DNA of 27,369 nt from the IMG/VR virus record IMGVR_UViG_3300029259_000410, positions 1 to 27,369 of that record. One strand, given 5' to 3'. Made by a program: the position numbers and the translations under genes. The notes beneath the pieces were generated by a model, which saw only the letters and a program-made list of their open reading frames with translations, had not been told where the DNA came from and searched no databases. Numbering within the stretch: the first letter of the stretch is position 1; each line of letters opens with the position of its first letter. This DNA comes from a virus. Shown in pieces: positions 3,001-27,369 of this stretch.

Positions 3001-3354
3001 TTATGTCCCCCAACGCGCTTTAATCCCTCTGGTATCAATATGGGTAAAGGAGCTGTACTTACCAATACCAAACTGACTGGGGTATAGGGTGTCTAAGTAA
3101 GTGTAAACGTCACCAGGTGTGGCTCCTTTTACAACAATGTCAGCTGCACGCCCATGCTTGTGCTGTGATCGAGGCGAGCCCCCTATGTGACTGTTGTGTG
3201 TCTCACAACGGGCTGAACTGTTAATGTTAACGGGAGCATCAAAATGCTTACGGAGAACCGTAAGCACCTCAATTAACTCTGCGTCCACTGTGTCAAAGCC
3301 ACATCCGCACGAACATGCAAACTCACTTCTATCAAAGTAAGGTGAAATACTCAT
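3001..3354 (-). CDS. Peptidase M15 family (probable endolysin / D-Ala-D-Ala-type peptidase)
   Basis: 117 residues, the usual size of phage Peptidase_M15_3 proteins. The zinc-site signature is present: S63-x-H65-x-x-G68-x-A70-x-D72 and the second motif H105-x-D107 (FTHIDTR), giving probable ligands H65, D72 and H105. The N-terminus has the family-typical cysteine cluster FACSCGCGF (C14, C16, C18). The enzyme would cut peptide bonds in peptidoglycan. There is no signal peptide, so it needs a holin to reach the wall, and one is encoded at 1911. The start immediately follows the glutaredoxin stop, so the two genes are probably co-translated with PhoH from the same minus-strand message. Confidence 0.85.
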   Translation of the reverse strand: MSISPYFDRSEFACSCGCGFDTVDAELIEVLTVLRKHFDAPVNINSSARCETHNSHIGGSPRSQHKHGRAADIVVKGATPGDVYTYLDTLYPSQFGIGKYSSFTHIDTRGIKARWGT

Positions 3355-3582
3355 TTATGCTCCTTGGAGGGCTAGTTTAAGTTCAGTGAAACCACCAACG
3401 TGGTCATAGTTAAAGTAAATCTGCGGGACTTCTACGAATCCCGCATCTTTAATCATTGCTAGTGCATGTGCGTTCTCAGGTGAACGGACGTTCACATAAG
3501 TAAAGCTTTTGCCTTCAGTAGCAAGTAATTGGATGGCTTGTTTGCAGTAGGAACACTGAGTGTGCCCATAGACTTTGTACAT
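3355..3582 (-). CDS. Glutaredoxin
   Basis: 75 residues, a minimal glutaredoxin fold. The dithiol active site is C10-S-Y-C13, the cis-proline motif is V52-P53, and the glutathione-binding GG pair is at G63-G64 (HVGGFTEL). It would reduce disulfides using glutathione; in phages it is often linked to ribonucleotide reductase during DNA synthesis, though no reductase lies in this window. The ATG overlaps the PhoH stop codon by one base and the stop abuts the M15 start, a tightly coupled arrangement. Confidence 0.9.
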   Translation of the reverse strand: MYKVYGHTQCSYCKQAIQLLATEGKSFTYVNVRSPENAHALAMIKDAGFVEVPQIYFNYDHVGGFTELKLALQGA

Positions 3583-4298
3583 TACATCACCCCTACTTCA
3601 GCAAAGCCCATAACAATTTCACGACAAATGTCTGAACGGACAATGTCGTCAAACTCATTAAAGTCAACATGCTGGACCATACGGGTTAAACGAGGAGACT
3701 TCTCACGGAGGTCTAGGAAATGACTTAAGCCAGAGCCCTGCGGTAGATCACATTGTGCTAAGTCACCACACAGCACAAGCGTAGAATTCTTACCAATACG
3801 GGTCACAATGGATATGAGTTCTTCCAGTGTGCAGTCTTCTGCTTCATCCACAATGATGAATGCGTTTGACCAGGAGTTGCCTTTCACATTCTCAAGAGGT
3901 ACGAAGTCAATCATGTGGATTTCTTCTTTGAGCATGTAACTAAGTTGCCCATGTGAGAACTCCTCACTCAGGGCCCCTAGAATCGGTCTGAGCCAGTGTT
4001 TCATCTTCTCCTCATGAGTGCCCTTGGCAAAGCCAACCGACCTAGAGGCGGACACTGCTGGACGCATAAGGATGATTTGAGAGACAGCTGACTGTTTTAA
4101 CCAGAGTGCGGCAATTCGTGCAGGGATATATGTCTTGGATGTACCTGGGTATCCGGTAGCAAAAGTAATGGGAGAACTCTTAATGTTGGTGATGTACTCA
4201 GCCTGTATTTGGTTAAGCGGCTCAAGAGGTGCAGCTGGTTGCCAGGTATTCTCAGCTTTTTCGGAACGACTAGCAGTTTTTCTAGCAGTTTTGCCCAT
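3582..4298 (-). CDS. phoH: PhoH-like P-loop ATPase
   Basis: 238 residues from the ATG at 4298, chosen because TAAGGA lies about 9 bp upstream; a TTG nine codons earlier at 4325 lacks that support. Walker A is G49-YPGTSK-T56 and Walker B is IIVDEAED (D151, E152). The typical RPAV...GFAKG...EKM segment (79-98) and the sensor motif CGDLAQCD (177-184) are present. PhoH proteins are ATPases, some fused to RNase-type domains, and are widespread in marine phages; their phage role is unsettled (RNA metabolism or phosphate stress). Walker A and B differ slightly from the common GxAGTGKT and DEAQN. It is first in the minus-strand island and faces the divergent tail operon. Confidence 0.88.
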   Translation of the reverse strand: MGKTARKTASRSEKAENTWQPAAPLEPLNQIQAEYITNIKSSPITFATGYPGTSKTYIPARIAALWLKQSAVSQIILMRPAVSASRSVGFAKGTHEEKMKHWLRPILGALSEEFSHGQLSYMLKEEIHMIDFVPLENVKGNSWSNAFIIVDEAEDCTLEELISIVTRIGKNSTLVLCGDLAQCDLPQGSGLSHFLDLREKSPRLTRMVQHVDFNEFDDIVRSDICREIVMGFAEVGVM

Positions 4299-4337
4299 AG
4301 TTTTAGTCCTTAGATGCGTTAACAAGGTGGTGGAGTG

Positions 4338-10181: not shown

Positions 10182-12317
10182 ATGAATGACTCTGCTATTA
10201 AAGTATCAGAGGTTGAGGCCAAGGGCTTAACAGGCTGGGCTAACGAACCTTCTGTTACAGACCTCAAACAAGATTTCACTGACGCTAAGAACGAGGCTGA
10301 TACACATGTATCAGATGTTAATCGTTGGCTTGATAATCTAAATGTAACTGGTAGCGCTAAGATCAACACCCCTGAAGGCAACTCAAAGTTACAGCCTAAA
10401 CTAATCCGTAAGCAGGCTGAGTGGCGTTACTCCGCTTTATCTGAGCCTTTCTTAAGCACGCCAGACGTATTTAACGTCGCTCCCGTTACCCATGAGGATC
10501 GGGAAGCTGCAAAGCAAAATGAGTTGGTTCTAAATAACCAGTTCAACACCAAGATTAATAAAACCCAGTTTATCGACGAGTACATTCGCACTGCAGTGGA
10601 CGAAGGTACTGTTATCGTCAGAGTCGGATGGGACTATGAAGAACGTGAAGAAGTGCGCTCTAAAACTGTCTATGACTATGTCCCTGCAAACGATCCCTCG
10701 ACCTTTGCCCAGTATCAACAACTGGCTTCCCTTGCTCAGAGCAACCCTGAGTCCTTCGCATCTCAAGTCCCTGAACACTTGCAAGAGGCATTGCGCCTTT
10801 CAATGGAATCAGGACAGATGCTCGTTCCGGTAGAAGCAGGCACCGAAGAAGTCACAGAAACTGTGACTGTTCGTAACCTACCTACATTGGAAATATGTGA
10901 TTACCAGAATGTTGTTATCGACCCCTCTTGTGGCGGTGACTTCACGAAAGCACGCTTTGCTGTGTACTCATTTGAAACGTCATTAGACGAGCTCAAACGA
11001 GATGGTAAGTACAAAAACTTAGAGAAGATTAACATTACCAACTCAACGATTCTGGGCAATCCAGACCACGTTGCAAGTGACAATAGTTCTTTTAACTTCA
11101 ATGATGAGCCACGTAAAAAGTTCGTTGCTCATGAGTATTGGGGCTACTGGGATATTGACGGTGATGGTATTGTAAAACCAATCGTTGCTGCATGGGTGGG
11201 CGATGTACTGATCCGTATGGAAGATAATCCATTTCCAGATCAAGCCTTACCTTTTGTAGTCGTACCTTATCTCCCAGTCCGTAAAAGTTTACACGGGCAA
11301 CCTGATGGGGAATTACTGGAAGATAATCAGAAGATTATTGGAGCCGTTACTAGGGGTATGATTGATATCCTAGGTAAGAGCGCTAACGGTCAAACCGGTG
11401 TTCGTAAAGATGCACTGGATTTAACCAACAAGCGTCGCTTTGATAAAGGGCTGGACTATGAGTTCAACGCTAACGTTGACCCTCGCCAAGCCATCTTCAT
11501 GCATACTTATCCAGAAATCCCTAACTCCGCTCAAATCATGTTGCAGTTGCAAAATGCAGAGGCAGAGTCACTGACAGGCGTTAAAGCATTTAACACTGGT
11601 ATCAGTGGTCAGGCTTTGGGAGACACCGCTACAGGCATTCGTGGGGCGCTTGACGCATCCTCTAAGCGTGAGCTTGGGATACTACGTCGATTGGCTGACG
11701 GTATTATTCAGATTGGTCGTAAGTTTATTGCGATGAATGCTGAATTCCTATCTGAAGAAGAAGTCATTCGTATTACTAATGAAGACTTTGTGACCATTCG
11801 TCGTGATGACTTGGGCGGTAACTTTGACTTAAAGCTGTCTATTTCTACTGCAGAGGAAGACAACCAGAAAGCGCAAGAACTGGCATTCATGTTACAGACT
11901 ATGGGTAACTCGATGGACCCATCAATGTCTAAGATGATTCTTTCTGACATTGCCCGTCTACGTAAGATGCCAGATCTTGCTAAGAAGATTGAAGACTATG
12001 AGCCACAACCAGACCCAGTTGCACAGCAAAAAGCCCAGCTAGAACTAGCCAAGCTACAAGCTGAGATCCAGGAACTTCAGAGCCGTGCTCAAGAGAACCA
12101 GGCACAGGCGCAATTGGATATGGCTAAGGCAGGTGCTGAACAAGTGAAGGCCGGTAACGTACAGGCTGACACTGATATGAAGAACTTGGACTTTGTAGAG
12201 CAAGAGTCTGGCGTTAAGCAAGAACGTGATCTACAGAAACAAGGTGAGCAAGCCAAATCTAACGCCAAGTTAGAAATGGTTAAAGCATCTATTAACAGAC
12301 CACAACAAACTAATTAA
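10182..12317 (+). CDS. Portal protein
   Basis: 711 residues, in the range of large podovirus portals (P22 725, N4 763). The N-terminal third includes PKLIRKQAEWRYSALSEPF and FIDEYIRTAVDEGTVIVRVGWDYEE. The central core has YLPVRKSLHGQPDGELLEDNQKIIGAVTRGMID, and later GDTATGIRGALDASSKRELGILRRLADGI, features recurring in podovirus portal proteins. The C-terminal 110 residues are a Gln/Ala/Lys-rich helix (AQLELAKLQAEIQELQSRAQ), consistent with a long portal barrel or tail. It would form the dodecameric DNA channel that binds terminase and the tail. It is followed by a terminator and then the head genes. The ribosome site is weak. Confidence 0.82.
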   Translation: MNDSAIKVSEVEAKGLTGWANEPSVTDLKQDFTDAKNEADTHVSDVNRWLDNLNVTGSAKINTPEGNSKLQPKLIRKQAEWRYSALSEPFLSTPDVFNVAPVTHEDREAAKQNELVLNNQFNTKINKTQFIDEYIRTAVDEGTVIVRVGWDYEEREEVRSKTVYDYVPANDPSTFAQYQQLASLAQSNPESFASQVPEHLQEALRLSMESGQMLVPVEAGTEEVTETVTVRNLPTLEICDYQNVVIDPSCGGDFTKARFAVYSFETSLDELKRDGKYKNLEKINITNSTILGNPDHVASDNSSFNFNDEPRKKFVAHEYWGYWDIDGDGIVKPIVAAWVGDVLIRMEDNPFPDQALPFVVVPYLPVRKSLHGQPDGELLEDNQKIIGAVTRGMIDILGKSANGQTGVRKDALDLTNKRRFDKGLDYEFNANVDPRQAIFMHTYPEIPNSAQIMLQLQNAEAESLTGVKAFNTGISGQALGDTATGIRGALDASSKRELGILRRLADGIIQIGRKFIAMNAEFLSEEEVIRITNEDFVTIRRDDLGGNFDLKLSISTAEEDNQKAQELAFMLQTMGNSMDPSMSKMILSDIARLRKMPDLAKKIEDYEPQPDPVAQQKAQLELAKLQAEIQELQSRAQENQAQAQLDMAKAGAEQVKAGNVQADTDMKNLDFVEQESGVKQERDLQKQGEQAKSNAKLEMVKASINRPQQTN

Positions 12318-12392: not shown

Positions 12393-12728
12393 ATGCCTAC
12401 CAACATTGAATCACTAGAGTTGAACATTCGCGCTGCCAAAAAAACAGCAGAACTGGGTAAATCCCTTGATCGACTTACACACAACAACGACTTCAAATCC
12501 CTGATCATTGAAGGCTACTTTGAAAAGGAAGCCATTCGTCTGGTGTCCCTTAAAGGTGACCCAAACATGCAGGACGCAGAGAGCCAAACCTCTTTGATTA
12601 AACAGATGGACGCTATTGGTGGCTTACGTCAGTACTTATCTGCGGTGCTACAACTAGCACGTATGTCAGAGAAAGCACTCATCGAGGACGAAGAAACCCG
12701 TGACGAGATCATGGCAGAAGAGGTGTAA
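12393..12728 (+). CDS. Conserved head-associated protein between portal and scaffold
   Basis: 111 residues, helical. The pattern NIRAAKKTAELGKSLDRLTHNNDFKSLIIEGYFEKEAIRLV is one I recognise from small proteins encoded between portal and scaffold in other podoviruses. The C-terminus is very acidic. A GGAG site lies 4 bp before the ATG. No catalytic residues are seen. It may assist head assembly or packaging, but its function is not established. Confidence 0.65.
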   Translation: MPTNIESLELNIRAAKKTAELGKSLDRLTHNNDFKSLIIEGYFEKEAIRLVSLKGDPNMQDAESQTSLIKQMDAIGGLRQYLSAVLQLARMSEKALIEDEETRDEIMAEEV

Positions 12729-12731
12729 CTT

Positions 12732-13871
12732 ATGGATGACGAGCTGCTGAACGATGATAACTTGCTAGAATTGTCAGATGAAGAAATTCTGTCAATGGAT
12801 GCACCTGATTCTATGAGCAGCGCTGATGCGGAAGTGGGTGAAACCCCTGAAGCAGACAGCGGTGACGAAGTAGAACAAGCTGAGCCCGCTGAAACGAACG
12901 AAGAAGACACCTTAGAAGAACAGGAAGAACCTGTCGATGAGTCACAGCAAGACATGTTTGATAGTGATTCTATGGAAGAAGATTCATCTGAAGAAGAGGA
13001 GTCCTCAGAGGAGGATGATACTGATGAAGAAGACAGTACTTCTAATGAACTTGACTATAAGAAAGAATACAACAGAGTCATGGCACCATTCAAAGCGAAT
13101 GGAAAAGAGCTGAAAATTGACTCGGTAGATGAGGCTATTCAGTTAATGCAGATGGGCGCTAATTACGGCCAGAAGATGACTGCATTAAAACCAAACCTCA
13201 AACTACTGAAGATGTTGGAGAACAATAGCTTATTAACTGAAGCGAAGTTAAGCTATCTCATAGATCTGGACAAGAAGAATCCAGATGCCATCAAACAACT
13301 TATCCAGGACAGCGGCATTGACCCACTGGATGTAGATACCTCTGATAACACCGACTACAAACCAAACACTTACACTGTACACGACAAAGAAATTGAACTA
13401 GATGCGGTACTTGAAGAAATTCAAGACACTTCGACATACAGTAAAACTATTGACCTCGTAAGCAACAAGTGGGATGAAGCAAGTCGCAAAATCGTTGTAG
13501 ATAATCCGCAGATCATAAAATTAATCAATGAGCATGTGTCTAATGGCATCTATGCACAAATTGATTCTACGATCCAAAGAGAGCGGATGCTCGGTCGGTT
13601 GAATGGGCTTTCAGATATTGAAGCCTATCGGCAAATAGGTGACCAGATTAATGCGAGTGGCGGCTTTGTAAATGATACACAAAAGCCCACCCCACAACCT
13701 ATATCTACTCCTAAGCCGAAGAAACAACCTGACCCGAAAATGGCAAGTCGTAAGAAGGCCGCAGCACCTACAAAGTCTGCACCTACTAAATCGACTCTTC
13801 CAGCCGACTTCAACCCACTCAATCTGAGTGATGAAGACTTTGAAAAACTCGTTTCTTCAAAATTTAGTTAA
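12732..13871 (+). CDS. Capsid scaffolding protein
   Basis: 379 residues with the charge polarity of scaffold proteins. Residues 1-110 are extremely acidic (runs of Glu, Asp and Ser). The middle (about 110-310) is helical. The C-terminus has a Pro/Lys-rich segment (QKPTPQPISTPKPKKQPDPK) and a basic region (SRKKAAAPTKS), ending in NPLNLSDEDFEKLVSSKF, as in podovirus scaffolds where the C-terminal end contacts coat protein. It lies directly before the capsid gene, as in N4, T7 and P22. A GAGGTG ribosome site inside the end of the previous gene gives coupled translation. It is expected to be lost from the mature head. Confidence 0.8.
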   Translation: MDDELLNDDNLLELSDEEILSMDAPDSMSSADAEVGETPEADSGDEVEQAEPAETNEEDTLEEQEEPVDESQQDMFDSDSMEEDSSEEEESSEEDDTDEEDSTSNELDYKKEYNRVMAPFKANGKELKIDSVDEAIQLMQMGANYGQKMTALKPNLKLLKMLENNSLLTEAKLSYLIDLDKKNPDAIKQLIQDSGIDPLDVDTSDNTDYKPNTYTVHDKEIELDAVLEEIQDTSTYSKTIDLVSNKWDEASRKIVVDNPQIIKLINEHVSNGIYAQIDSTIQRERMLGRLNGLSDIEAYRQIGDQINASGGFVNDTQKPTPQPISTPKPKKQPDPKMASRKKAAAPTKSAPTKSTLPADFNPLNLSDEDFEKLVSSKFS

Positions 13872-13904: not shown

Positions 13905-15071
13905 ATGGCACAAGCATATAATGATCCTGCTGGCGGAACAGCTTCCGACGTTGGAAGTCAAATCCGTACGGATTACCACGTTAAAAAAGCCCTGATTGAA
14001 ACTGTTAAAGAACAGTATTTCTCTCAATTAGCCGATGTTACTGCAATGCCTAAGAACTTTGGCAAGAGCATCAAGCTATACCACTACCTTCCTTTGTTAG
14101 ATGACCGCAACACAAACGACCAAGGCATTAATGCTTCTGGCGTTACAATTGATGATGGTAATCTCTACGGTGGTTCTAAGGACGTAGGCGCTATCCCCGG
14201 TAAGTTGCCTGCTCTTTCTGAGCAAGGTGGTCGTGTTAACCGTGTTGGTTTCAAGCGTGTAGAGTTAGAAGGCTCAATCGAGAAGTTTGGTTTCTTCGAT
14301 GAGTACACTCAAGAGTCTTTGGACTTTGACACTGACGGCGAATTGATGATGCACATTAACCGCGAAATGCTTCGTGGTGCTAACGAGATCACTGAAGATG
14401 CTCTTCAGGTAGATTTGTTAAACGGTGCAGGCACTATCCGTTACGCAGGCGCAGCAACTTCTAATGCTACTGTAGCTGAAGACATGTTGGTTACTTACTC
14501 AGACTTGATGAAGTTAGCCATCGACTTGGACAACAACCGTACACCTAAGCACACTAAAGTGATCTCTGGTTCACGTATGGTAGACACCAAGACCATCGCT
14601 GCTGCTCGTTGCATGTACATTGGTTCTGAGTTGATCCCAACTCTACGTGCTATGACTGACCTGCACAACAACCCAGCGTTCGTTCCAGTACAGCAGTATG
14701 CTGATGCCGGTAACGTGCTAAACGGTGAGATTGGTTCTGTAGATCAGTTCCGTATCGTAGTTGTACCAGAAATGATGAAGTTTGCTGGCGCTGGTGATGA
14801 TGACGCAAATAGTGTTTCTCACACTACCAATGACAAAGTAGACGTATTCCCAATGCTAGTTGTTGGTGACGGTGCTTTCACTACTGTTGGTTTCCAAACT
14901 GACGGCAAATCTGTGAAGTTCAAGATTACTCACAAGAAGCCTGGTGAAGCGACTGCTGATCGTAGTGACCCATACGGCGAGACTGGCTTTATGTCAATCA
15001 AGTGGTACTACGGTTCTTTGATCTTACGTCCAGAGCGTATTGCTGTTATCAAGACTGCTGCTTCTTTGTAG
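13905..15071 (+). CDS. Major capsid protein, N4 gp56-like family
   Basis: 388 residues, near the size of N4 gp56 (about 400). The pattern matches what I know of the 'N4-gp56 family' coat proteins: an N-terminal region with [22 protein letters not shown], the central [20 protein letters not shown], then the domain with [15 protein letters not shown] and the late [15 protein letters not shown] and [25 protein letters not shown]. It would adopt the HK97 fold and form the icosahedral shell. AGGAG lies 9 bp before the ATG, the strongest ribosome site in this block, consistent with high expression. A strong terminator follows directly. Confidence 0.85.
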
Positions 15072-15140: not shown

Positions 15141-15686
15141 ATGACAGATGAAATAATCCAGGATGAGCTAAGTGTTTTAAAAGCACGCGCTGACCAAATG
15201 GGTGTTAGTTATAGCAGAAACATTGGTGCAGAAAAACTGCGTGCACGTATAGCAGATGCACTTACTGATCAAGAACCTGTCGCTGAGGCTCCCAAGAAAG
15301 AAGCCGTAGAAACTGCAGGGCAACGTCGCAATCGCTTACGTAAAGAAGCTAGCGCACTGGTTCGAGTACGCATTACTTGCATGAACCCCAACAAGCGTGA
15401 GTGGCAAGGTGAAATCTTCACTGTCTCTAACGCAGTAGTCGGTACATTCCGTAACTATGTGCCCTTTAATATTGAGGATGGCTGGCATATTCCAGAGATC
15501 ATTCTTCAACAAGTTAAAGCCCGTCAGTGTCAGATATTTAAGACAGTTAACGGCCCTCGTGGTGAGAAGCTCCGTAAAGGTACTTTGATCCCTGAGTTCT
15601 CTATTGATGTGCTTCCGCCATTAACAGAAAAAGAATTATCAGATCTAGCTAAGCGCCAAGCAATGGCTGGCAGCATCGAGGATTAA
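15141..15686 (+). CDS. Head/virion-associated protein with HeH/SAP-like N-terminus
   Basis: 181 residues. Residues about 10-50 (SVLKARADQMGVSYSRNIGAEKLRARIADAL) look like a HeH/LEM/SAP-type helix-extension-helix motif, which often contacts DNA. The rest is a compact alpha/beta domain with RVRITCMNPNKREWQGEIF, YVPFNIEDGWHIPEIIL and FKTVNGPRGEKL. It lies just after the capsid gene; in N4 the genes after the capsid gene encode small virion proteins. A head or DNA-binding structural role is inferred. Confidence 0.6.
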   Translation: MTDEIIQDELSVLKARADQMGVSYSRNIGAEKLRARIADALTDQEPVAEAPKKEAVETAGQRRNRLRKEASALVRVRITCMNPNKREWQGEIFTVSNAVVGTFRNYVPFNIEDGWHIPEIILQQVKARQCQIFKTVNGPRGEKLRKGTLIPEFSIDVLPPLTEKELSDLAKRQAMAGSIED

Positions 15687-15688
15687 TT

Positions 15689-16705
15689 ATGGAAGTTGCT
15701 GATATTACATCAGGATCACTTAACGGCACGGGAGTCTTTGACTCCTTGATGCGTGCCGTAAAGGTGCATCTGGATCAGGAGTACAAGAAGAACCGTTTCT
15801 CTGGCGAAGACTACTCTACGCTTTATATGGGTGCGATGAACGCAGTACTGCAGCAATCCATTCAATATGCGCTAACTAAAGAGCAGTCTGATGGACAGGC
15901 AGCACTGTTGGCGGCACAAGCCTCTAAGACTGCTGTAGAAGAACGGTTAGTCACTCAGCAGCTACAGAACTTGGCTACTGAACAACTGAACCTAGTAAAG
16001 CAAGGTGCTCAACTAGATAAGCAGAATTTGTTATTGGATGAACAGGTTATTAAAGCAGTCGAAGACACCGCTTTGGTTACCCAGCAAAAGCTTAACCTTG
16101 TTGCTGAGAAATCCAATACTAACTTAACTGGCCTTAAGATCTCTGCAGAGACTACTTACCTAGGTTTACAGCAAACCAAGTTAGGTTCTGACAAGTTATT
16201 GGTTGACCGGCAAACTGCTAATCTAACTCTGGATGCGGCGAATACCCCCTTACAAGGGAACCTAATTAACAAGCAGATTGATAAACTGGCTGAAGATGTC
16301 ATTGCATCGAGCGCACAGCGCACACAGTTAGCTAAGCAAGGTCTATTAGTTGATTCACAAACTAATAAGACAACACAGGAAACAGCGGCTGTTATCGCTG
16401 GCATTAGTAAGATCAACAAAGAGGTTGAAGTTCTGGATCAGCGTAAAGCGACTGAGGAAGCACAGATAGCCGATAACGTTGATGGTACTCCTGTAACTGG
16501 TGTTCTAGGTAAACAGAAGAGCTTGTATCAAGCTCAGACAGACGGCTTTGCACGCGATGCGGAGCAGAAGCTTGCTAAGACGTTCTTAGATATTTGGTCA
16601 GTGCAACGCACAACAGACGAAGGCTTTACTGTAGCGGGAACTGGTTTGTCGAACACAGAGATTGGTACAGTGGTGGCGAAAGCTAAGCAAGGCATTGGCG
16701 TTTAA
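15689..16705 (+). CDS. Long coiled-coil structural protein
   Basis: 338 residues, starting 2 bp after the previous stop with GAGG upstream. Residues about 70-270 are almost continuous heptad-rich helix with Gln, Leu, Lys and Asp repeats (LVTQQLQNLATEQLNLV, LDKQNLLLDEQ, LLVDRQTANLTL, LLVDSQTNKTTQE). The C-terminal 70 residues are more globular and include GKQKSLYQAQTDGFARDAEQK, a phrase I associate with podovirus virion proteins near the ejection genes. It is likely a head or internal virion component. A terminator with six T follows. Confidence 0.62.
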   Translation: MEVADITSGSLNGTGVFDSLMRAVKVHLDQEYKKNRFSGEDYSTLYMGAMNAVLQQSIQYALTKEQSDGQAALLAAQASKTAVEERLVTQQLQNLATEQLNLVKQGAQLDKQNLLLDEQVIKAVEDTALVTQQKLNLVAEKSNTNLTGLKISAETTYLGLQQTKLGSDKLLVDRQTANLTLDAANTPLQGNLINKQIDKLAEDVIASSAQRTQLAKQGLLVDSQTNKTTQETAAVIAGISKINKEVEVLDQRKATEEAQIADNVDGTPVTGVLGKQKSLYQAQTDGFARDAEQKLAKTFLDIWSVQRTTDEGFTVAGTGLSNTEIGTVVAKAKQGIGV

Positions 16706-16757: not shown

Positions 16758-19118
16758 ATGGGTTTTTTCTCTAGTAAACGTAAAGTCTCGGTTGCAGCTA
16801 ACTCTGTTCCTATAATAGATCGTGAAGTTGATCTAATAGGTGAATCCCTTATGCGAGCTATCCTACGGAAAGGTAACATTTCCTCTGGGATAGTTGAAGA
16901 CATGGTTAACTCAAATGGGCGTAACATTGTACGCGCCTACAACTACGCTAAGAGCGATTATCACTACGGGTTACCCAGTGGCACTACTGAGGTTGTAAAC
17001 TACACTGAGAGTGCCTTAATAAGCGCTGTAGAGGCATCAACCGGTGACACAGTACTTGAACTGCGTGAAGTCTTACATGACAGTGGTAATCCGGGAATCG
17101 AAGCCACCTGGTATTTGGATACTGTACGCAATAGGTCTTTATTAACTGGCGAGCTAGCCACCTTACCCCCTACTTTAATTACAGAAATAAATTCCATCTG
17201 GAATAATTGGGTCAATTCTTGTAGTAGCACACTTGCCGCTCACAAGAATGACATCGAAGCAGATTACCCTTCTACAATGCTCTACGTTACAGAGAATGCT
17301 ACAGACGCCAGTAACAACCCTTGTACAAAAAACATACAAGACGTTGTCAGCGTAGCGGCAGAGTATTTCTATAATGACAGCCGTTCGCATAGTACTCAGG
17401 TAGATGACATTGATTATCTGGTAGACAGTACGGGCTACCCAACTGGGCATAGATACACTTATACAACCCGTCAGCACTTCGCACTGACTGGTGTGGTTTC
17501 TTATGTACTAAGTACTGTACGTACTGTAACTCCTGAATATGCTGACGGAACCTTTGGAGCGCCTTACACTGAGTTTGTTCCTGACAATCGTATCAACACT
17601 AACTACCCATTCAGTGATGTGTCGAACCATACTTTCACAGAAACCACAGCTCTTGCGGGCACTTACGATTTTAGAGCCTTAAAGTATTACGTACAGTACG
17701 CATTAGCTGATGGTTCAGTTAAATCGTGGCTGTATGACACCAACAGTAATACTTACCCTGGCTTAGATTATACGGAGGCTGCTGGATCAGAGTCTCCTTT
17801 CTACCCGGTTGTCCCATTACGGTACGAGAACACAGACTACTGTCACGAAGACGAGTGGGACACAGTGCGTTACCTGACGAGTAAGAAATTACTTAGTATT
17901 ATGGGTATGGATATACAAGCGTTACGTGAGGGTATTAACGAGAACCCTAACATTGATGACGTAGACCATGCATATTTCATGTTTGGTGTGCAGCTCCAAG
18001 ACGAAAGCAAGTCTGCTAAACGTTATCTGTGCGCTTTCTTTGAGCACATGGGTTCTTTACAGAGCCAAGCTATTCGCATTACAGAAGGTGGCATGGACAT
18101 GCGGCTCTCTTGGGACAGTGTGGCTACCGTAATTCGTTCTGGGCGCATTGGTACCAAAGGCAAAGCTAATTCATCTATCAACTCAGCTGCAAACCAAATG
18201 GTTTTTCGTGTGCAGTTTGACGAGGACAGTTACAAAGAAGTCACTGTTACAGGGCTGCTTCACACTAACTACGTCTACGAAGGTAAGACGGTTGAGACAA
18301 CAGTGGCAGACACCTTAGAGGAGGGCGAGTACAACTTCATCATTCCCTTACACGCAGGTGTAGTAGAGAGCTTACCTACGATAGTACGGAACGAGCTTTA
18401 CTTCGATGCAATGCAACTAGTGTTCTACAGCTACGAGGTGACTTATGTGGCTTGGTACCAGCAAGAGTGGTTCCTTAACTTAATTAAGATAGTGGCTGTA
18501 ATCATTACTATTGCTTCAATTGGCACACTGGCAAGCGCGGGGTATGAGGCGTTTATTCTCGCCACAGCTGCAGGTGCGAGCACCCTAGCTGCGCTAGGTG
18601 TTGCGGCGCAAGTACTCATCATGCAAATACTTGAAGGGATGATTACATCATTCATATTTAAGTTGGTCTTGTCTCAGGTTGACCCTGACTTTGCAATGAT
18701 CATGGCGACCGTCCTGCTTGTCTACGGTGGAATTAAAGGCTTTAAGGCAGGAGGCATCGTAGAAGGGTCGAATGCGGAGATGCTACTGAAGCTGTCAACA
18801 GGCATTACTAGTGGTGTTCAACAAAACTTGGCTCAATCCACCTTAGATCTTAAAAGTGAAGTAGACGCTTTCTCAAAAGACGCCGATGAAAAGATGGATG
18901 CGTTGGACGAGATTAATAAACAGTTTGCTTTAACAGGTATAATTGATCCAATGGAATTCATTATGTCTGAACCCATGATCAGTCTCAACGAGAGCCCTGA
19001 ATCGTATTATTTCAGAACAGTTCATTCGGGTAATGTTGGTGCAATGTCATATGACGCTATCACTAACTACCACAACTTAATGCTGGACTTACCCCAACCC
19101 CAACATACGTATATTTAG
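16758..19118 (+). CDS. Large internal virion / ejection protein candidate with membrane-active segment
   Basis: 786 residues. Residues 1-555 are a large soluble domain rich in Thr, Tyr and Asp (many YTYTTRQHF- and YADGTFGAPYT-like beta phrases). Residues about 573-690 are strongly hydrophobic (WFLNLIKIVAVIITIASIG, LAALGVAAQVLIMQILEG, FAMIMATVLLVYGG). The tail is helical and polar. A hydrophobic block inside a large virion protein fits a protein that inserts into the host membrane during DNA ejection. In N4, several proteins encoded between the capsid gene and vRNAP are virion components. The start is awkward: ATG 16758 has only AGG 2 bp before it and lies right after a terminator. Confidence 0.6.
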   Translation: MGFFSSKRKVSVAANSVPIIDREVDLIGESLMRAILRKGNISSGIVEDMVNSNGRNIVRAYNYAKSDYHYGLPSGTTEVVNYTESALISAVEASTGDTVLELREVLHDSGNPGIEATWYLDTVRNRSLLTGELATLPPTLITEINSIWNNWVNSCSSTLAAHKNDIEADYPSTMLYVTENATDASNNPCTKNIQDVVSVAAEYFYNDSRSHSTQVDDIDYLVDSTGYPTGHRYTYTTRQHFALTGVVSYVLSTVRTVTPEYADGTFGAPYTEFVPDNRINTNYPFSDVSNHTFTETTALAGTYDFRALKYYVQYALADGSVKSWLYDTNSNTYPGLDYTEAAGSESPFYPVVPLRYENTDYCHEDEWDTVRYLTSKKLLSIMGMDIQALREGINENPNIDDVDHAYFMFGVQLQDESKSAKRYLCAFFEHMGSLQSQAIRITEGGMDMRLSWDSVATVIRSGRIGTKGKANSSINSAANQMVFRVQFDEDSYKEVTVTGLLHTNYVYEGKTVETTVADTLEEGEYNFIIPLHAGVVESLPTIVRNELYFDAMQLVFYSYEVTYVAWYQQEWFLNLIKIVAVIITIASIGTLASAGYEAFILATAAGASTLAALGVAAQVLIMQILEGMITSFIFKLVLSQVDPDFAMIMATVLLVYGGIKGFKAGGIVEGSNAEMLLKLSTGITSGVQQNLAQSTLDLKSEVDAFSKDADEKMDALDEINKQFALTGIIDPMEFIMSEPMISLNESPESYYFRTVHSGNVGAMSYDAITNYHNLMLDLPQPQHTYI

Positions 19119-19129
19119 TGAGGAACACA

Positions 19130-19642
19130 ATGCAAGACGATTCACAAAACCAAGGTACTCAGTCTAATCCTATTATGGATTTCATTAAGCAAATGACTGG
19201 CTGGGGCGGTAACCAAGATGCCATGCAGCCTGCCCAGTTCCAACAACTTAACATGTCTCCTTATGCGCCGAAGGCACCCTCTTTTATGGATCAGGCGGGT
19301 ATGCAAAACACTATGGGTAGCTATGGCTCAAACACAGGTTATCAGCCTACTTTAGGGGATAAATTGTTTGGCTACCAAGACGGTGACATGCAGTACGGTG
19401 CGATGGCCCCAGGGTTATTACAGGGTGCAGGCAGTATTGCACAGTCTATTCTTGGCTGGGGTCAATTGTCTGAAGCTAAGAAGCAGAATGCCTTCACACA
19501 AGAAGCTTGGCAAAAGCAGTATGACAATCAATCCACACTGACTAATGCTAGCTTACGTGATCGACAGAGCTCACGAGTAGCGGCTGCCCCTGGTGCTTAC
19601 CAATCTGTAGGCGAGTACATGCAACAGAATAAGGTGGGTTAA
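19130..19642 (+). CDS. Ejection-protein-like (T7 gp14-like) protein
   Basis: 170 residues from ATG 19130 (GAGGA about 6 bp upstream); a GTG at 19118 that would overlap the previous stop is less likely. The N-terminal half is Gln, Asn, Met and Gly rich with little structure. The middle GLLQGAGSIAQSILGWG is mildly hydrophobic. The C-terminal NAFTQEAWQKQYDNQ and LRDRQSSRVAA resemble the C-terminal helices of small podovirus internal virion proteins such as T7 gp14. Position just before other candidate ejection genes fits. No enzyme motif is seen. Confidence 0.6.
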   Translation: MQDDSQNQGTQSNPIMDFIKQMTGWGGNQDAMQPAQFQQLNMSPYAPKAPSFMDQAGMQNTMGSYGSNTGYQPTLGDKLFGYQDGDMQYGAMAPGLLQGAGSIAQSILGWGQLSEAKKQNAFTQEAWQKQYDNQSTLTNASLRDRQSSRVAAAPGAYQSVGEYMQQNKVG

Positions 19643-19645
19643 CAG

Positions 19646-21025
19646 ATGCCTATTACTTGGAAGAATATTGCCGGACCTAACTTTGAAAGTGGCAACGCTC
19701 TAATGAAAGCTGGTGCAGAGTCAATGACAGGTGGCTTGGATTCATTAGCTAAAGCTGCTCAAACTTATGGCACTCAGCAGCAAGATGAACGTATTGCCAT
19801 ACGTGATGACAACACACAGCAGTTTCTTGATCAGATCGACCAGATGAAGAACATGGACAACTACAACAACCAAGCTGGTCAGTTTAGTCAGTCTGCGTTG
19901 TCAGGTCAGAATGTAGATGCCAGTAAAATAATGGGGGCTTACGGTCAGCAGAAGACAGATATTCGTAACTTGATAAAGAGTGACAATGCTTTTGATACCA
20001 GCCAGTATAATAACACTGAGCGTCTTAGAAAAATTACCGAACAACCAATATTAACTCAGTACAACACTATGGTTGCAAGTGGCAACCACGCAGATGCACA
20101 GGAGTATTATGAAAATAATAAGGACAGTGTAAGTGATTGGTCTGCGGCACTTGATTCAGGTCAGCAGGCAAAACGTGATGACAAGGCATATACCGATGCC
20201 GAAACCTTCACAACGCAAACAGTAGACGCAGGTAACATCTACACAGACATATTGCATGCTCCAGGTACTAATGAAGGTAATATCGTTAAGACCTTACAAA
20301 AGAAGTTTGATGACGCAGGGATTCCACAAGGTGTTGTCCAGAGTTTCATAGAACAAGCTAGGACTCAGTACAAAGCGGGCGTGGCGCTAACCGATGTAGA
20401 TAATCAAAAAATCGCCTCACTTGGAGCGGGTTTTGATCAACAACTTGCTGACGTTAACGCACTGTTCGATGCGGAGGTGGCTGACAACTCAACTCGCCTA
20501 ACTAACGACGAGTTTGAGAATTACAAAAGAGACTCAGACAGTTACACTAATCAAAGCCAAGCTATTGATTACATTTCTTCTAAGTCTGGTGAATCAAATT
20601 GGTGGTCATTTGATAGTAAGACATGGGCGGCTAGAGGTATTCAGGGTGGTGCAAACGGTGCAAACGCAACGCAAGATATGCTGGTAAATTTACAAAGAGC
20701 TATTACATCAGACGGCTCTAAGGCGCAGAAAGGTCTACTCAAGGCAACGGGTGGGCAGATTCCTGGCTTTGTAGTTAAGCGTGCGTTTGATCGAGTAGGT
20801 CAAAAGGAAGACGGGGAGTGGAATGTAGATGAGTTCTATAACGGGCTAAAAGTAGAGTGGGATCAGTATGTTAACCAGCATGGGGCAATCCAAATCCGCG
20901 AGAAGCTTGATCAAGATCGTAAAATGGCATTAGATTCGCTCAATAAAAACAAGCTCCAAAATGTAAGCGCACTAAGCACTCAATTAAGGAACAAGCAAAA
21001 GAATGCATTTAGCAACTCTAACTAA
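19646..21025 (+). CDS. Helical internal virion protein candidate
   Basis: 459 residues, almost wholly polar alpha helix with many Gln, Asn, Asp and Lys, and no membrane span. It begins MPITWKNIAGPNFESGNALMKAG, where phage ejection proteins often start with a phrase like 'NWKNIAAPNF'. It lies 3 bp after the gp14-like gene and directly before the vRNAP gene. In T7 the ejection set is gp14, gp15 and gp16; this could occupy the gp15 position. Function is inferred from order and composition only. A terminator follows. Confidence 0.58.
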   Translation: MPITWKNIAGPNFESGNALMKAGAESMTGGLDSLAKAAQTYGTQQQDERIAIRDDNTQQFLDQIDQMKNMDNYNNQAGQFSQSALSGQNVDASKIMGAYGQQKTDIRNLIKSDNAFDTSQYNNTERLRKITEQPILTQYNTMVASGNHADAQEYYENNKDSVSDWSAALDSGQQAKRDDKAYTDAETFTTQTVDAGNIYTDILHAPGTNEGNIVKTLQKKFDDAGIPQGVVQSFIEQARTQYKAGVALTDVDNQKIASLGAGFDQQLADVNALFDAEVADNSTRLTNDEFENYKRDSDSYTNQSQAIDYISSKSGESNWWSFDSKTWAARGIQGGANGANATQDMLVNLQRAITSDGSKAQKGLLKATGGQIPGFVVKRAFDRVGQKEDGEWNVDEFYNGLKVEWDQYVNQHGAIQIREKLDQDRKMALDSLNKNKLQNVSALSTQLRNKQKNAFSNSN

Positions 21026-21059
21026 GTAATCCTTAGTATTTGGGTAGCATATCAACGAT

Positions 21060-21092: not shown

Positions 21093-21108
21093 ACCAGAGG
21101 TTTTTAAC

Positions 21109-24100
21109 ATGAGTAAGCATACCCCTATCAGTGACCAAGAAAATGCTGAGATTGATAAAGCTATAGAAGTTAATAAGTACGTGGATAATTCAGATCTTAA
21201 TCTCAACATAGCTAGGCTAAGAGCGCAGGCAAACCAGAACCCAGATCCATCGCTTATCAAAACCGCTCTTAATTCATTACCAGATAAACAACCTGTATTT
21301 ACTCGATCACCAGATTCCCTATCTTCTGAGGCGATGGCTGCTCCGCAGCAAGTCGCCCCACAAAAAGTCCCTACTTTTTCTGAAGCTAAACAAGCGATAA
21401 CTAAACCATTAGCTGACGCTAAGATCACTAAGTTAGCTGAGATAGACAAGACAGCTGACCTAGAGAATGTCGTGAACACTAATCCACTCATGTGGGAGCA
21501 AGAACTAGACCGCATGGCTAAAGTGCGTGAAGAGACCGCAATACGGAATCGAGACGCAGTAGTGACTGATGAAGAGCTAGCTACTATCCCAGGGCAATTA
21601 GTAAATGCGGGTGTTGCAGCGCTGGATGGTGGTGCTAGAGTCGCTGGGCAAATTGGATCACTCCCATTTAACTTAGAAGCTGCGAAAACTCTGACTGCGA
21701 TGAGCCCAGAGGTACAGGAAGCTTTTGAAGCGTCGCTAGTTAATCAGGGTAAAAATAAAGCCATTGATGAGCGTCGTCAGGAGATTCAGAAAAAAGCAGT
21801 TAAAGAAGGTATGACGCCTGGGCTACAAGCTGAGTTGACTAAACTAGATACCATTCAATCTAATATACCGTCATTAAGCGAAGAACAGACTGCGTTGTTA
21901 GGCAGTCCTTCGGCGTTAGGTAACAACGAAGACATGGCGTTACGTCCTGGCGAGAAACCTTTGTTTCCTGAAGGCAGTGAGCTATACAACCAAACTTACG
22001 TACCTAAAACCAACCAACAAGAAATGGATGGTTTACTGGCTACCCTTGAAACAGCTGAAGACATTGATAATTTCTGGAATCAAGACACTTGGCTTTCAGG
22101 TAAATTTAACGACTCTGATCGTGATGTGTTGCTTGAGGACTTTGGTAAAACCTACGATAAGTGGTTTGGTGACCACAATAGTTTCGACAGCCCTGAAGAC
22201 ACACTAGCTGTTGCCGGTATGATCCTTGAAGGTGCAGGTGATTTAATTAGTAACCCAGGTGCTACGATGGAGTACGTGGCAGAGAACCTTCCCCAGTTAC
22301 TGATTGGTGGTGTGGTCAAAGGCGGTCTAGCACTAACGAACGTAAGTTACGCTATGGATGAATACCGTAAAGGTATACAGGAAGTTTTGGCTGAGACAGG
22401 TGCGCTCCCTGATCATGAGCAATCAGGCGAAATGCTAGCATGGTCACTGAGTCTTGCCGTTGCTGAACAACTCGGTGATGCTTCTGTTATCAGAGGACTA
22501 CGTAGGTTTAAGCCATCAAAAAAAGTAACTGATCCTGTCGCAGAAGCGGTTAAGAAAACAGTTCGTGATTCACTAATCAAACAGTTGGGCCAACGTACTG
22601 GCACTGTAGCCAAATCTTTTGTGGGTGAAGGTTCAACAGAGGGTTTTCAGACAGCCGTTGAGAGCACAGAAGTCAGGGGCAAAGACCTAAGTACTGCTGA
22701 TCCTAAAGAGGTCTACACTGCTGCGATGATTGGCGCAGGAGCTGGTTCAGGCACTGTAGCACCCGGACAGACACTAGGTGCTACAAAGGATGTTGTACAA
22801 ACTGCGGCTTCTAATCGTATGAATGCTTGGGCAGGCCAAGCTAAGGTACGAAGAGAGAAATCTGCAGCAACACAAGCTGCTGATGAGCAAGCATTAGGTA
22901 AAGCAATTGAGACAGGTGACTTCACTGAATTTGCTGGTAATGATTCTACAAATTCTGTGGAAAATACGGCTAAAGTTGAACTGGTTCAAAAAATAGGTAC
23001 TATTGCCGCCGCTTATGAAGACTTAGTTGGAAGAGCAACTGAAACACAGCCTGTTGATTTACAAGAATCACGCAAGCTAGTTAACGGTGCTGCACAAGTC
23101 ATTCAAGTTGAGCATGAGGCTATTACAGCGCTTGAAAAGAAGATAGTTGCTAGCACTAGTCAAAGTGAACAAAAAAAGCTAAACAAAGAATTAGTACAAC
23201 GCAAAACAGCGCGTGACCAGGCAACTGAAGCTGTTGAGGCAATGAAAGCCAAGCACACTAAACTTTTAAATGTAGGAGCATTAGTAGATCAAGTGACTAC
23301 CGCCACAACGCGGAGCACTGAGTTTAAGATCGCAGGACAAGAGATACTGGAGTTGCTTCAAGTAAGCCCTGAGTCATTAGCCAATGCTAAAGACTTACTA
23401 TCTTCACCTCACTGGACTAAGGAAGAGCGCAACGAACTTCAGCTGCATATCACTGCTGAACAGTCAAAGGACACGTTACGTAATAGTCCAGAATTAAAGT
23501 CAACGCAAAGTGTACAAAACAATGTGATTGATGGTGGTGACGGTTATAAAGGTGCAGAGCAGTACAGGTCAAGTATCTTGTCAGCGTTGGATTTTGGTAA
23601 CGACTCTATGGTGAACCGCGAGCTGAATCAGCTACGTACGTTTGTCAAAAGTCACACCAATAAGGCCAAAGCGTTTGCCTTGGCTTATGCACCTTACGGG
23701 CGTAAGTCAGACAATCCGGGACAACCACTTAGTGCTTCTCAAGAAGAAACAGAAGCAAAGAAATATGTCGAGTCAACATGGAAGACAAAAAAAGGGAAAC
23801 CTTACAATGTCAGCGATAAGTTCAGTCCGCTAGTTGATAATGTTCAATATGAGTCACAGGCTCTACAAGATACGCTAGCGTATTTAGAGGCTGTCATTAA
23901 TGCAAGGAAAGCGCGTAATGAAGAAACAAAGACAGAAAAAGTAAGTACAAGAACTGCTGAATCAACGAAGGAGCCAGACGCCAATCCAAACGCCTCTGTT
24001 GATCAACAGCCATCTCAAGGAGAGACTACTTCTACTGATACCCAAGGTACTAGTCAAAGTGGCGCTAATGTACAGAGTTCAACTGTAGAAGGGAATACTG

Positions 24101-27100
24101 GTCAAACAACCAGTGTTCCAGATTCGGCTACCCAAAATAACACTGAATCAGAGACTGTTCTTGAAAATACACAAGAAAATCAACAGGTTACAGAAAGTGA
24201 AGCGTCTGCGGATACTGTTGTTACTGAAACAGTTGAAAAAGATAATAGTAATCGAGTTACTGTTTACGATGCCACGGGTAACTCTTACTCTGCTGAAATT
24301 GTTTCTGTTAGTGATCAAGGCACGACCATTGTTAAAAACCAGGCTGGCGAAGAAGTCATTCTTGGCTCAGATCCAAGTGCATTAGAGGTAAATGCAAAAG
24401 ATCCTGAATACAAAGTTGATGCTAAGGGTAATAAGCACAACGGTGCTACCATCTCAGCATTGAGCGATGCTCAATTAAAAGAATTGATCTCGTCTGAGGA
24501 AGCTTTAAGAGCTGGTTCTAGTAGTCGTAGCGTCAATGCACTTACAAATATCAACGCCGCTAAACTGGAACTTAAGAGAAGAGAGAGTAAGCCTGAGCAG
24601 AAAACGGCTGATGCCGCACAAACTGTAGAAGCAGAAACCGTTGAACCAACTATTGAAGAGCAAGTAGCAAACAGCGACCTTAAAGAATCGTTTAGCTTTA
24701 ACAAGAGCAAAACAAACATTCTTCATCACATAGGTAACCTTGCTGATGCGCTTAAAGGTAATCTGGACTCAGTGGCTAAGTTTCTTAGGCAAGAGTCAGT
24801 TAATGAGTTAGAAGAGCAATCAATACGTAGCTTTGGTTATTTTGCTGATTCAGTATCAGATAGCTTACAGGGTATTTTTGATGTCCGAAGGGCATCAAAA
24901 GACAGTCCAACAGCTAAGAAAGGTGATGTACTCACACAAACTGACCCTGCTCAAAACTTTGCAGATGAGAACGGTAATCTAACTGAGGAAGCCAGCACCG
25001 CTATCGCTGCAGCTGTCTATAATTGGATCGCAACAAAAGCGGGTTCTACGCTGTACAACAATGACTTTTCTATTGCTGCCTTACTGGGTATTCAAGAAGA
25101 GAATGTCACTAATGCGATGCGGGAAATGTTTGGTGAAGGCGGTGTGTCACAGACCACAGTGTCGCGCCTACTGGGTGCAGAGATTGTCCGTAACCTTGGC
25201 TTGCGTAATAAAGATAAAACCATCCCAGCTAACCATTTGCCTCGCTTAGAGCAGGCAATGGGTAATCTGGCGATTGCTTATATGCGTGATCAAGGCATTG
25301 TAGAGTCTTACGCTGTCACAGCTAAAGAGTTAGGTGAGCTGACATCTAGGGAATCTAAAGCCGATTTAGTAATGCTTCAGGCTACATCAGAAGTTAATGA
25401 GTCAGGTGATGCTACGTTATCTGAAGAATTATCTTCTTTTGTAGAAATGGAACAGGCAAGTAATTATGTGGTTGGTCGTTTATTTGAGACTACCTTTGCC
25501 AAGGAATTCCCATCGCTGACGCCTATAAACACAACAGTGACTAAGCAGAAAGGTACTGTAAAAAACATTGCTGAAAAAATGCTTGCTATCCTACGTAGGC
25601 ATCAGATTCGTGCTCACCAGATTGCAGGTGACACAGATGGTGCTTTGATGTTCCTGACACGTAAGCAGCAGGAAGACGCGCTAGGCGTTGTTACTGACGA
25701 GTCCATTAATAAGTTGCATGAGTCTCGACGCAAGGGTGCCAAAGGCAAGCAGCGCACACAGCGTGCTGAATTAAATAATTACGCTGAGTTCCGTGAGCGT
25801 ATGTTAAACCAGAAATCTGGTTTGAAAAGCCCCTTCTACTTTGCTCATGAGATCTGGAAGAACCAACGCATTGGCATGGTAGGTAATGTGGTAAACACCC
25901 AGCGTTCTAAGATCCAGCGTGGCTTGATTCGTATGAATGCATGGGTCACTCAAGTTGATCCTAATAACAACAAGCAACGTACATTGTTCTTAATGGGAGT
26001 CGCTCAGGGTATTGGTGTCACAGTAAGTGCTGGGGACAATAAGCGAAAGTTTGATGCATTAACTCGCAGAGAAGCCCTTGACGAAGTTGAAGCAAAACTT
26101 GCTCAACCTGTCTTTAAAAAAGCGATTGATGCTTTAGTTAAGATTCAGGATGTGCGTGATCTCAGTGAATCTGAAGTACAACAGCTACAACAAGCTATTG
26201 TTGACGGTATTAAAGCTGGAGGTGAAGGGTCACAGACGTTACACGCCTTAACTAACTACGCACGTATGAAGGCAGCTAACGGTGACAAATTTACATCAGA
26301 CCTTGCGCTTGAGATAGATGGCATTGCCAATGGCATTATGATTGGTACGATGCAGTTTATGCCAGGGAACGCACGAATTAAGTCTATGCTGGCAAGGGGT
26401 GGTATCTTTCTTAATAACATGCGTTCTTTTGGTGAGTATAAAGCGCGTGGGAATAAAGATACCTACGAAAACCTTGCATCTATCTGGAGCCAATCGTTAG
26501 CTGTATTAAAAGCAAGAAATCCTGCACAGTTTATTGTTGCGGAGCGGTTTTTTACAATTAACCGGCAATCAGCCAAAGATCCAGTACTAACAACGGTCTA
26601 CGGCGCAGGTGTCAAAGGCATTGTTAACTCAGTATCTGACGCGTTTATTGAAAACATCTTGATCGAAATAGAAACTATTGTGAATGGGCCCGAATCTACG
26701 GGTAAACAAGCAATGGCGCTTAAGAAACTAGACGAAGACCTGAAGTTATTAACCCAAGGTAAGTCGATATTGCCTACTCTTAATCCAAATGAAATCATGG
26801 AAATGAAACTGGACTATCAGGGTATTTACGCACTACGTAGCTGGGTAGAAAATAATCATGGTGTTGCTGTAATGAATGCCATTAAACAGGAGTTCGGTGA
26901 GTTCATTAAGAACCGCACGCGATACAATGAAGTAATCAACGCCATTAACGATCAGTTTGTTGGACTGTTTGAGCAAGCGATTGCTGACGCACGCAAAGAG
27001 GCAATAGATGACGGGACAATTACCAAGAACGATGACTTACCTGTTGAGACTATAGAAAAAATTATAGCTGATCTACAAGGTGCAATCCCTGGTATTAACA

Positions 27101-27369
27101 ATGCTTTCAGTGTGGATCATGCTGAGCTAATGCAGCTAGCTAAACAAGGGCGTAGTGAAGGAAGTGCCAAGCTTTATAAAGTAGAAACTAAACTGGGCCG
27201 CAAAGTAGATGGGGTAAAGTCCATTAACTCAACAGGTCAGGCGCGTGATTGGGTCGATGATCTTGGTGTGTCCCCTACAGTCCTTAGTATTCACTCATTG
27301 GATGCTGCAGTTGCGCTACAAACTCTGGGGTTTGCTTCAGTACTTAACGTACACGATGGTTTCTATACC
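21109..27369 (+). CDS. Virion RNA polymerase (N4 vRNAP-like), 3'-truncated by window
   Basis: Open from ATG 21109 to the window edge (2,087 residues, no stop). Single-subunit T7/N4-type RNA polymerase hallmarks: a probable T/DxxGR-motif counterpart near R1587 (IWKNQRIGMVG); motif A EIDGIANGIMIG with catalytic D1737; motif B R1819-x3-K1823-x7-Y1831-G1832, the exact spacing of T7 R627/K631/Y639; motif C VHDGF with H2082 and D2083, like T7 HDSF. The RNAP domain would begin near 1180, by analogy with N4 mini-vRNAP. Before it lie a helical N-terminus with a Gly/Ala-rich VGEGSTEGFQ...AAMIGAGAGSGT segment (505-550), coiled coil (about 570-720) and a Ser/Thr/Gln/Glu-rich linker (about 945-1044). N4 vRNAP is 3,500 residues, so a large C-terminal part likely lies beyond the window. 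It is probably packaged in the virion and starts early transcription. Confidence 0.87.
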   Translation, partial: MSKHTPISDQENAEIDKAIEVNKYVDNSDLNLNIARLRAQANQNPDPSLIKTALNSLPDKQPVFTRSPDSLSSEAMAAPQQVAPQKVPTFSEAKQAITKPLADAKITKLAEIDKTADLENVVNTNPLMWEQELDRMAKVREETAIRNRDAVVTDEELATIPGQLVNAGVAALDGGARVAGQIGSLPFNLEAAKTLTAMSPEVQEAFEASLVNQGKNKAIDERRQEIQKKAVKEGMTPGLQAELTKLDTIQSNIPSLSEEQTALLGSPSALGNNEDMALRPGEKPLFPEGSELYNQTYVPKTNQQEMDGLLATLETAEDIDNFWNQDTWLSGKFNDSDRDVLLEDFGKTYDKWFGDHNSFDSPEDTLAVAGMILEGAGDLISNPGATMEYVAENLPQLLIGGVVKGGLALTNVSYAMDEYRKGIQEVLAETGALPDHEQSGEMLAWSLSLAVAEQLGDASVIRGLRRFKPSKKVTDPVAEAVKKTVRDSLIKQLGQRTGTVAKSFVGEGSTEGFQTAVESTEVRGKDLSTADPKEVYTAAMIGAGAGSGTVAPGQTLGATKDVVQTAASNRMNAWAGQAKVRREKSAATQAADEQALGKAIETGDFTEFAGNDSTNSVENTAKVELVQKIGTIAAAYEDLVGRATETQPVDLQESRKLVNGAAQVIQVEHEAITALEKKIVASTSQSEQKKLNKELVQRKTARDQATEAVEAMKAKHTKLLNVGALVDQVTTATTRSTEFKIAGQEILELLQVSPESLANAKDLLSSPHWTKEERNELQLHITAEQSKDTLRNSPELKSTQSVQNNVIDGGDGYKGAEQYRSSILSALDFGNDSMVNRELNQLRTFVKSHTNKAKAFALAYAPYGRKSDNPGQPLSASQEETEAKKYVESTWKTKKGKPYNVSDKFSPLVDNVQYESQALQDTLAYLEAVINARKARNEETKTEKVSTRTAESTKEPDANPNASVDQQPSQGETTSTDTQGTSQSGANVQSSTVEGNTGQTTSVPDSATQNNTESETVLENTQENQQVTESEASADTVVTETVEKDNSNRVTVYDATGNSYSAEIVSVSDQGTTIVKNQAGEEVILGSDPSALEVNAKDPEYKVDAKGNKHNGATISALSDAQLKELISSEEALRAGSSSRSVNALTNINAAKLELKRRESKPEQKTADAAQTVEAETVEPTIEEQVANSDLKESFSFNKSKTNILHHIGNLADALKGNLDSVAKFLRQESVNELEEQSIRSFGYFADSVSDSLQGIFDVRRASKDSPTAKKGDVLTQTDPAQNFADENGNLTEEASTAIAAAVYNWIATKAGSTLYNNDFSIAALLGIQEENVTNAMREMFGEGGVSQTTVSRLLGAEIVRNLGLRNKDKTIPANHLPRLEQAMGNLAIAYMRDQGIVESYAVTAKELGELTSRESKADLVMLQATSEVNESGDATLSEELSSFVEMEQASNYVVGRLFETTFAKEFPSLTPINTTVTKQKGTVKNIAEKMLAILRRHQIRAHQIAGDTDGALMFLTRKQQEDALGVVTDESINKLHESRRKGAKGKQRTQRAELNNYAEFRERMLNQKSGLKSPFYFAHEIWKNQRIGMVGNVVNTQRSKIQRGLIRMNAWVTQVDPNNNKQRTLFLMGVAQGIGVTVSAGDNKRKFDALTRREALDEVEAKLAQPVFKKAIDALVKIQDVRDLSESEVQQLQQAIVDGIKAGGEGSQTLHALTNYARMKAANGDKFTSDLALEIDGIANGIMIGTMQFMPGNARIKSMLARGGIFLNNMRSFGEYKARGNKDTYENLASIWSQSLAVLKARNPAQFIVAERFFTINRQSAKDPVLTTVYGAGVKGIVNSVSDAFIENILIEIETIVNGPESTGKQAMALKKLDEDLKLLTQGKSILPTLNPNEIMEMKLDYQGIYALRSWVENNHGVAVMNAIKQEFGEFIKNRTRYNEVINAINDQFVGLFEQAIADARKEAIDDGTITKNDDLPVETIEKIIADLQGAIPGINNAFSVDHAELMQLAKQGRSEGSAKLYKVETKLGRKVDGVKSINSTGQARDWVDDLGVSPTVLSIHSLDAAVALQTLGFASVLNVHDGFYT

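Follow-up and report, generated by a model that had tools for sequence, protein, structure and literature searches.

A probable N4 gp50-type virion RNA polymerase gene in a genome fragment of a divergent, uncultured schitovirus

The open reading frame that closes the stretch of viral DNA analysed here (a 27,369-base virus record, itself a genome fragment and referred to below as the window) is very probably, at a probability of about 0.96, the N4 gp50-type virion RNA polymerase (vRNAP) gene of a new and divergent schitovirus. Knowledge of packaged RNA polymerases like this one dates from N4, and the phage is a divergent new member of the Schitoviridae, not a new kind of system. A preliminary description had read the frame as a virion-type single-subunit RNA polymerase, and this reading is supported by a match to PHROG 2206, the predicted fold, the catalytic residues, the full gene length, operon order and the lack of any cysteine (Table 1). 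A published account calls the vRNAP a hallmark of N4-like phages (PMC3670811), and all schitoviruses that we examined carry the gene.

Table 1. Features of the vRNAP gene and of the late block that precedes it, in window coordinates. N4 residues are in mini-vRNAP numbering.
Feature	Position	Strand	Basis or remark
Portal protein (N4 gp59)	10182..12317	+	phrog_1216 E=3e-262, Pfam SU10_portal
N4 gp58-position protein	12393..12728	+	phrog_2346 E=6e-32; synteny
N4 gp57-like protein (PHROG label: tape measure)	12732..13871	+	phrog_2120 E=5e-118
Major capsid protein (N4 gp56)	13905..15071	+	phrog_1357 E=4e-141
N4 gp55-like protein	15141..15686	+	phrog_2130 E=6e-67; synteny
N4 gp54-like virion structural protein	15689..16705	+	phrog_2050 E=1e-62
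N4 gp53 homologue, 786 aa	16758..19118	+	phrog_2220 E=1e-114; synteny
gp52-position ejection protein candidate, 174 aa, Cys-free	19118..19642	+	phrog_2646 E=9e-19; synteny
gp51-position ejection protein candidate, 459 aa, Cys-free	19646..21025	+	Precedes vRNAP as in relatives
Shine-Dalgarno-like AGAGG	21096..21100	+	8 nt upstream of ATG 21109; sequence read directly
Probable N4 gp50-type vRNAP gene, 5' part (residues 1-2087 of 3,627)	21109..27369	+	PHROG 2206, E=8e-184; contig L002
N-terminal domain and linker, residues 1-1189	21109..24675	+	Alignment to N4 gp50; boundary approximate
Polymerase domain, residues 1190-2087 in window	24676..27369	+	AlphaFold2 model and Foldseek matches
T/DxxGR-motif arginine R1587 (N4 R424)	25867..25869	+	R in 52/52
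Motif A metal-binding aspartate D1737 (N4 D559)	26317..26319	+	D in 52/52
Motif B R1819-x3-K1823-x7-Y1831-G1832 (N4 R666/K670/Y678)	26563..26604	+	Alignments
Motif C H2082-D2083 (N4 F950-D951)	27352..27357	+	D in 52/52, H in 49/52

The gene and its neighbourhood

Within the window the frame runs for 2,087 codons without a stop, and the gene is cut by the end of the contig. An IMG/VR contig of 15,458 bases (L002) overlaps the last 7,873 nt of the window at 99.56% identity and reaches the stop codon, so that the complete vRNAP (L002:1614-12497) is 3,627 aa long. The extension to the stop that the preliminary description had proposed thus yields a protein close in size to N4 gp50 (3,500 aa), with annotated relatives ranging from 3,022 to 3,819 aa. 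We took one giant chain of about 3,000-3,900 aa as the size expected of an N4-type vRNAP, and the protein lies inside this range of the gp50 family. Because a Shine-Dalgarno-like site precedes the ATG at 21109, that codon was preferred as the start and a TTG at 21040 was dropped.

The protein consists of three parts, namely an N-terminal part (residues ~1-1189), a T7-like single-subunit polymerase (~1190-2203) and a large C-terminal part extending to residue 3,627. The polymerase domain, which ends near residue 2203 in L002, is the counterpart of N4 mini-vRNAP (998-2103). The N-terminal part corresponds to the N-terminal domain of N4 gp50, which has an ejection or membrane-associated role (PMC12633501). 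The C-terminal part carries an HExxH motif (HELIH) at residue 2322, in the portion supplied by L002 outside the window, and the motif is present in all 15 vRNAPs compared. It was considered as a new metalloprotease activity, a proposal that we dropped since HExxH has already been reported for the C1 domain of N4 (PMC12633501).

PHROG 2206, labelled 'virion RNA polymerase', matches residues 177-2086, a span that takes in the N-terminal and polymerase domains, at a level well above chance (E=8e-184). Pairwise BLASTP against the N4 polymerase domain gave E=5e-19, and tblastn, which had hits in 364 phage records, gave E=2e-14 for N4. When a profile was built from five members other than N4 (the protein itself and the vRNAPs of phi50-12, LUZ7, VCO139 and Littlefix), it matched the N4 vRNAP chains in the PDB at E=1e-54; a profile containing N4 was left out of the evidence because it is circular for N4. 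Single-sequence phmmer of the vRNAP against the PDB returned no real match, as the protein is too distant from N4 and a profile of relatives is needed, and the N4-derived Pfam model scored 23 bits, under its cut-off of 27, because the sequence diverges from N4. In an alignment of 15 vRNAPs, conserved stretches were too few for a pattern search.

The order portal-gp58-gp57-capsid-gp55-gp54-gp53-gp52-gp51-vRNAP is that of N4, phi50-12, LUZ7 and Pylas, and the portal proteins of this phage and Klebsiella phage Pylas share 62% identity. The gp51-position protein has only weak PHROG matches, and N4, phi50-12, LUZ7 and Pylas share its placement. The synteny of the Schitoviridae is present, with a late block from portal to vRNAP followed by replication genes on the opposite strand (in L002, minus-strand ssb and Sak4 genes beyond the end of the vRNAP gene, as in relatives). 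The position of the frame after the ejection-protein candidates, likened to N4 in the preliminary description, agrees with this operon order. Schitovirus genomes measure about 70-80 kb and encode a heterodimeric RNAPII; the contigs found for this phage overlap and are each up to 27 kb long.

Three small genes on the minus strand at window 3001-4325 oppose the late block and encode an endolysin or peptidase-like protein, a thioredoxin-domain protein and a PhoH-like protein. Further contigs from this phage or one almost identical to it overlap these sequences (L098, of 26,368 bases and reaching 6.2 kb to the left of the window, and L101); they add a gp67-position virion protein and large tail fibre genes on the left of the window and also lengthen L002 on the right.

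Polymerase fold and catalytic residues

The AlphaFold2 model of residues 1190-2203 has a pLDDT of 88.3 and a pTM of 0.87. A structural search for the RNAP fold had been set beforehand as the test of the polymerase reading, and it recovered that fold in its single-subunit form, the best match being N4 vRNAP. All ten of the best PDB matches in Foldseek were N4 vRNAP (3c3l, 2po4 and 9pnq among the top ones; E 4e-34 to 2e-29, TM about 0.75), and mitochondrial RNAPs (near E=1e-13) and then T7 RNAP (near 1e-12) came next. As modelled, the polymerase domain has a single-subunit RNAP fold and is nearest to N4 mini-vRNAP.

Catalytic positions were compared in an alignment of the vRNAP with N4 and 13 other schitoviruses, and in a set of 52 sequences made up of the window's vRNAP and 51 IMG/VR relatives. 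The preliminary description had placed motifs A, B and C at D1737, R1819/K1823/Y1831-G1832 and H2082-D2083, and these positions are exact, as is its spacing of 94 between D1737 and Y1831. It had also expected D1737, K1823, Y1831 and D2083 to fall in the active site, and they share alignment columns with N4 D559, K670, Y678 and D951. A fourth motif (T/DxxGR, which reads KNQR here, with Gln in place of Gly and R1587 as its arginine) and the actual gene end were beyond its view. The pattern R-x3-K-x7-YG is found once in the protein. R1587, D1737, R1819, K1823, G1832 and D2083 are invariant across the 52 vRNAPs, and position 1831 is either Tyr or Phe, with Tyr in the window's protein. R424, D559, K670, Y678 and D951 are listed as catalytic in the vRNAPs of N4 and a roseophage (PMC2784036), and all five positions are kept here, as R1587, D1737, K1823, Y1831 and D2083.

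In 34 of the 52 vRNAPs, including L007, L011 and most of L019-L097, Phe takes the place of the motif B Tyr (N4 Y678, T7 Y639). In N4 and T7 this Tyr reads the sugar of the NTP. The substitution extends over a large part of the vRNAP family, beyond the Pseudomonas N4-like phages; as it is already on record for the latter (PMC3715699, supplementary legend), it was dropped as a novelty. In one relative (L033:9950-13095) the vRNAP frame falls into two ORFs that part between the regions of motifs B and C, and this may reflect a sequencing error, an intron or a real break.

Relatives, rival readings and promoter contacts

N4 gp50 (PDB 2PO4, 3C2P, 3C3L, 9PNR) has its fold in common with the window's protein (Foldseek E 4e-34, TM 0.75), together with the catalytic residues, the three-part layout, the C-terminal HExxH, the absence of cysteine and the gene order, whereas their polymerase domains are only about 17-18% identical. 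Identity to the annotated phages aligned is 16-27% over this domain. The nearest annotated relative by tblastn is Vibrio phage phi50-12 (Penintadodekavirus, Schitoviridae; about 27% identity), which has the same operon and the same HD in motif C, with a vRNAP of 3,024 aa compared with 3,627 here. In the polymerase tree the vRNAP falls in a clade of environmental contigs, where its sister (support 0.98) and nearest relative found (35% identity) is the 3,354-aa vRNAP of an uncultured phage on an unannotated contig, L019 (IMGVR_UViG_3300031976_000907). In the Pseudomonas phages LUZ7 and DEV the vRNAP and two ejection proteins are adjacent, as here; LUZ7 has Phe at the motif B position where N4 and the window's protein have Tyr. 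The LUZ7 vRNAP has been detected in virions by mass spectrometry (PMC3715699).

Since single-subunit RNAPs all share motifs A, B and C, and T7 RNAP is among the fold matches, the frame might instead encode a polymerase made after infection, of the autographivirus (T7 gp1-like) or N4 RNAPII type. T7 and mitochondrial RNAPs do have the right-hand single-subunit fold and the three motifs in common with the protein, but they lack the giant N- and C-terminal parts, are not packaged and show much lower structural similarity (E about 1e-12 for T7 RNAP against 4e-34 for N4 vRNAP). The protein has 3,627 aa and not about 880, it has no cysteine, and both its PHROG match and its gene position are those of a vRNAP. 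We consider a post-infection polymerase very unlikely, and the T7-type reading is refuted in the main by the PHROG match, the length and the fold search. It is just as improbable that the protein is homologous to vRNAPs but has lost its polymerase activity and serves only in ejection or as an envelope channel. N4-like vRNAPs do double as ejection proteins (PMC12633501, PMC10925440), but here the catalytic residues are all intact and invariant, the modelled fold is complete, and a second contig holds an intact copy that is 99.6% identical.

The gp50-type vRNAP differs from that of N4 in several details. Motif C is HD here and in T7 and FD in N4, and the T/DxxGR motif is KNQR as against TRVGR. 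The segment between motifs A and B, which holds the inhibitory 'motif B loop' of N4, has 82 residues compared with 107 in N4 and a median of 97 in the 52 sequences, among which it is the second shortest. The residues of N4 that contact the promoter hairpin are K114, R119, W129, K267, K268, D901, R904 and K849 (PMC4496689); K114 is the sole match in the alignment, where the other seven are not conserved, in regions whose alignment is poor for most of the family. Promoter recognition may therefore differ in detail, which we treat as a lead and not a result because of this poor alignment. The non-conserved contacts and the short A-to-B segment are weakly suggestive of real differences from N4. 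From the one contact kept and the short segment it might further be supposed that the vRNAP of this clade makes promoter contacts unlike those of N4 (perhaps not with a hairpin of 3-nt loop and central purine) and is gated differently, which we think rather unlikely. The early region of schitoviruses lies at the far end of the genome, and in this phage the early region with its promoters falls outside the window and the overlapping contigs.

Absence of cysteine and the proposed route of infection

There is no cysteine in the 3,627 residues of the vRNAP, nor in any of 14 annotated relatives; at the cysteine rate of the other window proteins, this would occur by chance with a probability of about 2e-7. 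A cysteine-free vRNAP is already known, and it has been suggested that a chain lacking cysteine passes more readily through the tail and periplasm (PMC2784036, PMC3715699, PMC3915230). Cysteine goes unmentioned in the two structural papers cited on the ejection proteins. Our survey of cysteine spans the window, L004-L018 and L019-L097. The gp51 and gp52 proteins are likewise free of cysteine in this phage (19118-21025), in N4 and in 13 other annotated schitoviruses, and the neighbouring gp53 has 1-5 cysteines wherever counted in annotated schitoviruses. At 53 environmental loci the vRNAP has 10 cysteines in 180,547 aa, compared with 121 in 38,877 aa for gp53, and nearly all ORFs of gp51 or gp52 size have none.

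By homology with N4 and DEV, the vRNAP would be packed in the capsid alongside gp51 and gp52 and ejected through the tail into a Gram-negative envelope, where gp52 and gp51 would make a channel and the polymerase would reach the cytoplasm. In DEV, a single operon encodes the three ejection proteins, of which two build the channel (PMC10925440). The N-terminal part of N4 gp50 associates with membranes and its C-terminal part damps the polymerase (PMC12633501); a similar membrane insertion, and regulation of the polymerase by the C-terminal part, may take place here. Once inside, the vRNAP would transcribe the phage early genes from template-strand hairpins without the host RNAP, with D1737 and D2083 predicted to carry out two-metal catalysis, K1823 and R1819 to bind the NTP phosphates and Y1831 to read the sugar. 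In N4, host gyrase and SSB assist the extrusion of the single-stranded hairpin that serves as the template (PMC4496689). The preliminary description's view that infection starts without host sigma factors holds for N4 early transcription, but host gyrase and host SSB are still needed there (PMC4496689).

The gene leaves existing knowledge unchanged, and a correct structural call was achieved from the raw sequence. An uncultured phage is placed in the Schitoviridae, within a small environmental clade to which none of the annotated phages sampled belongs. With the family-wide alignment it becomes possible to test how promoters are located by vRNAPs without the N4 hairpin contacts, and why cysteine is avoided throughout the ejected trio.
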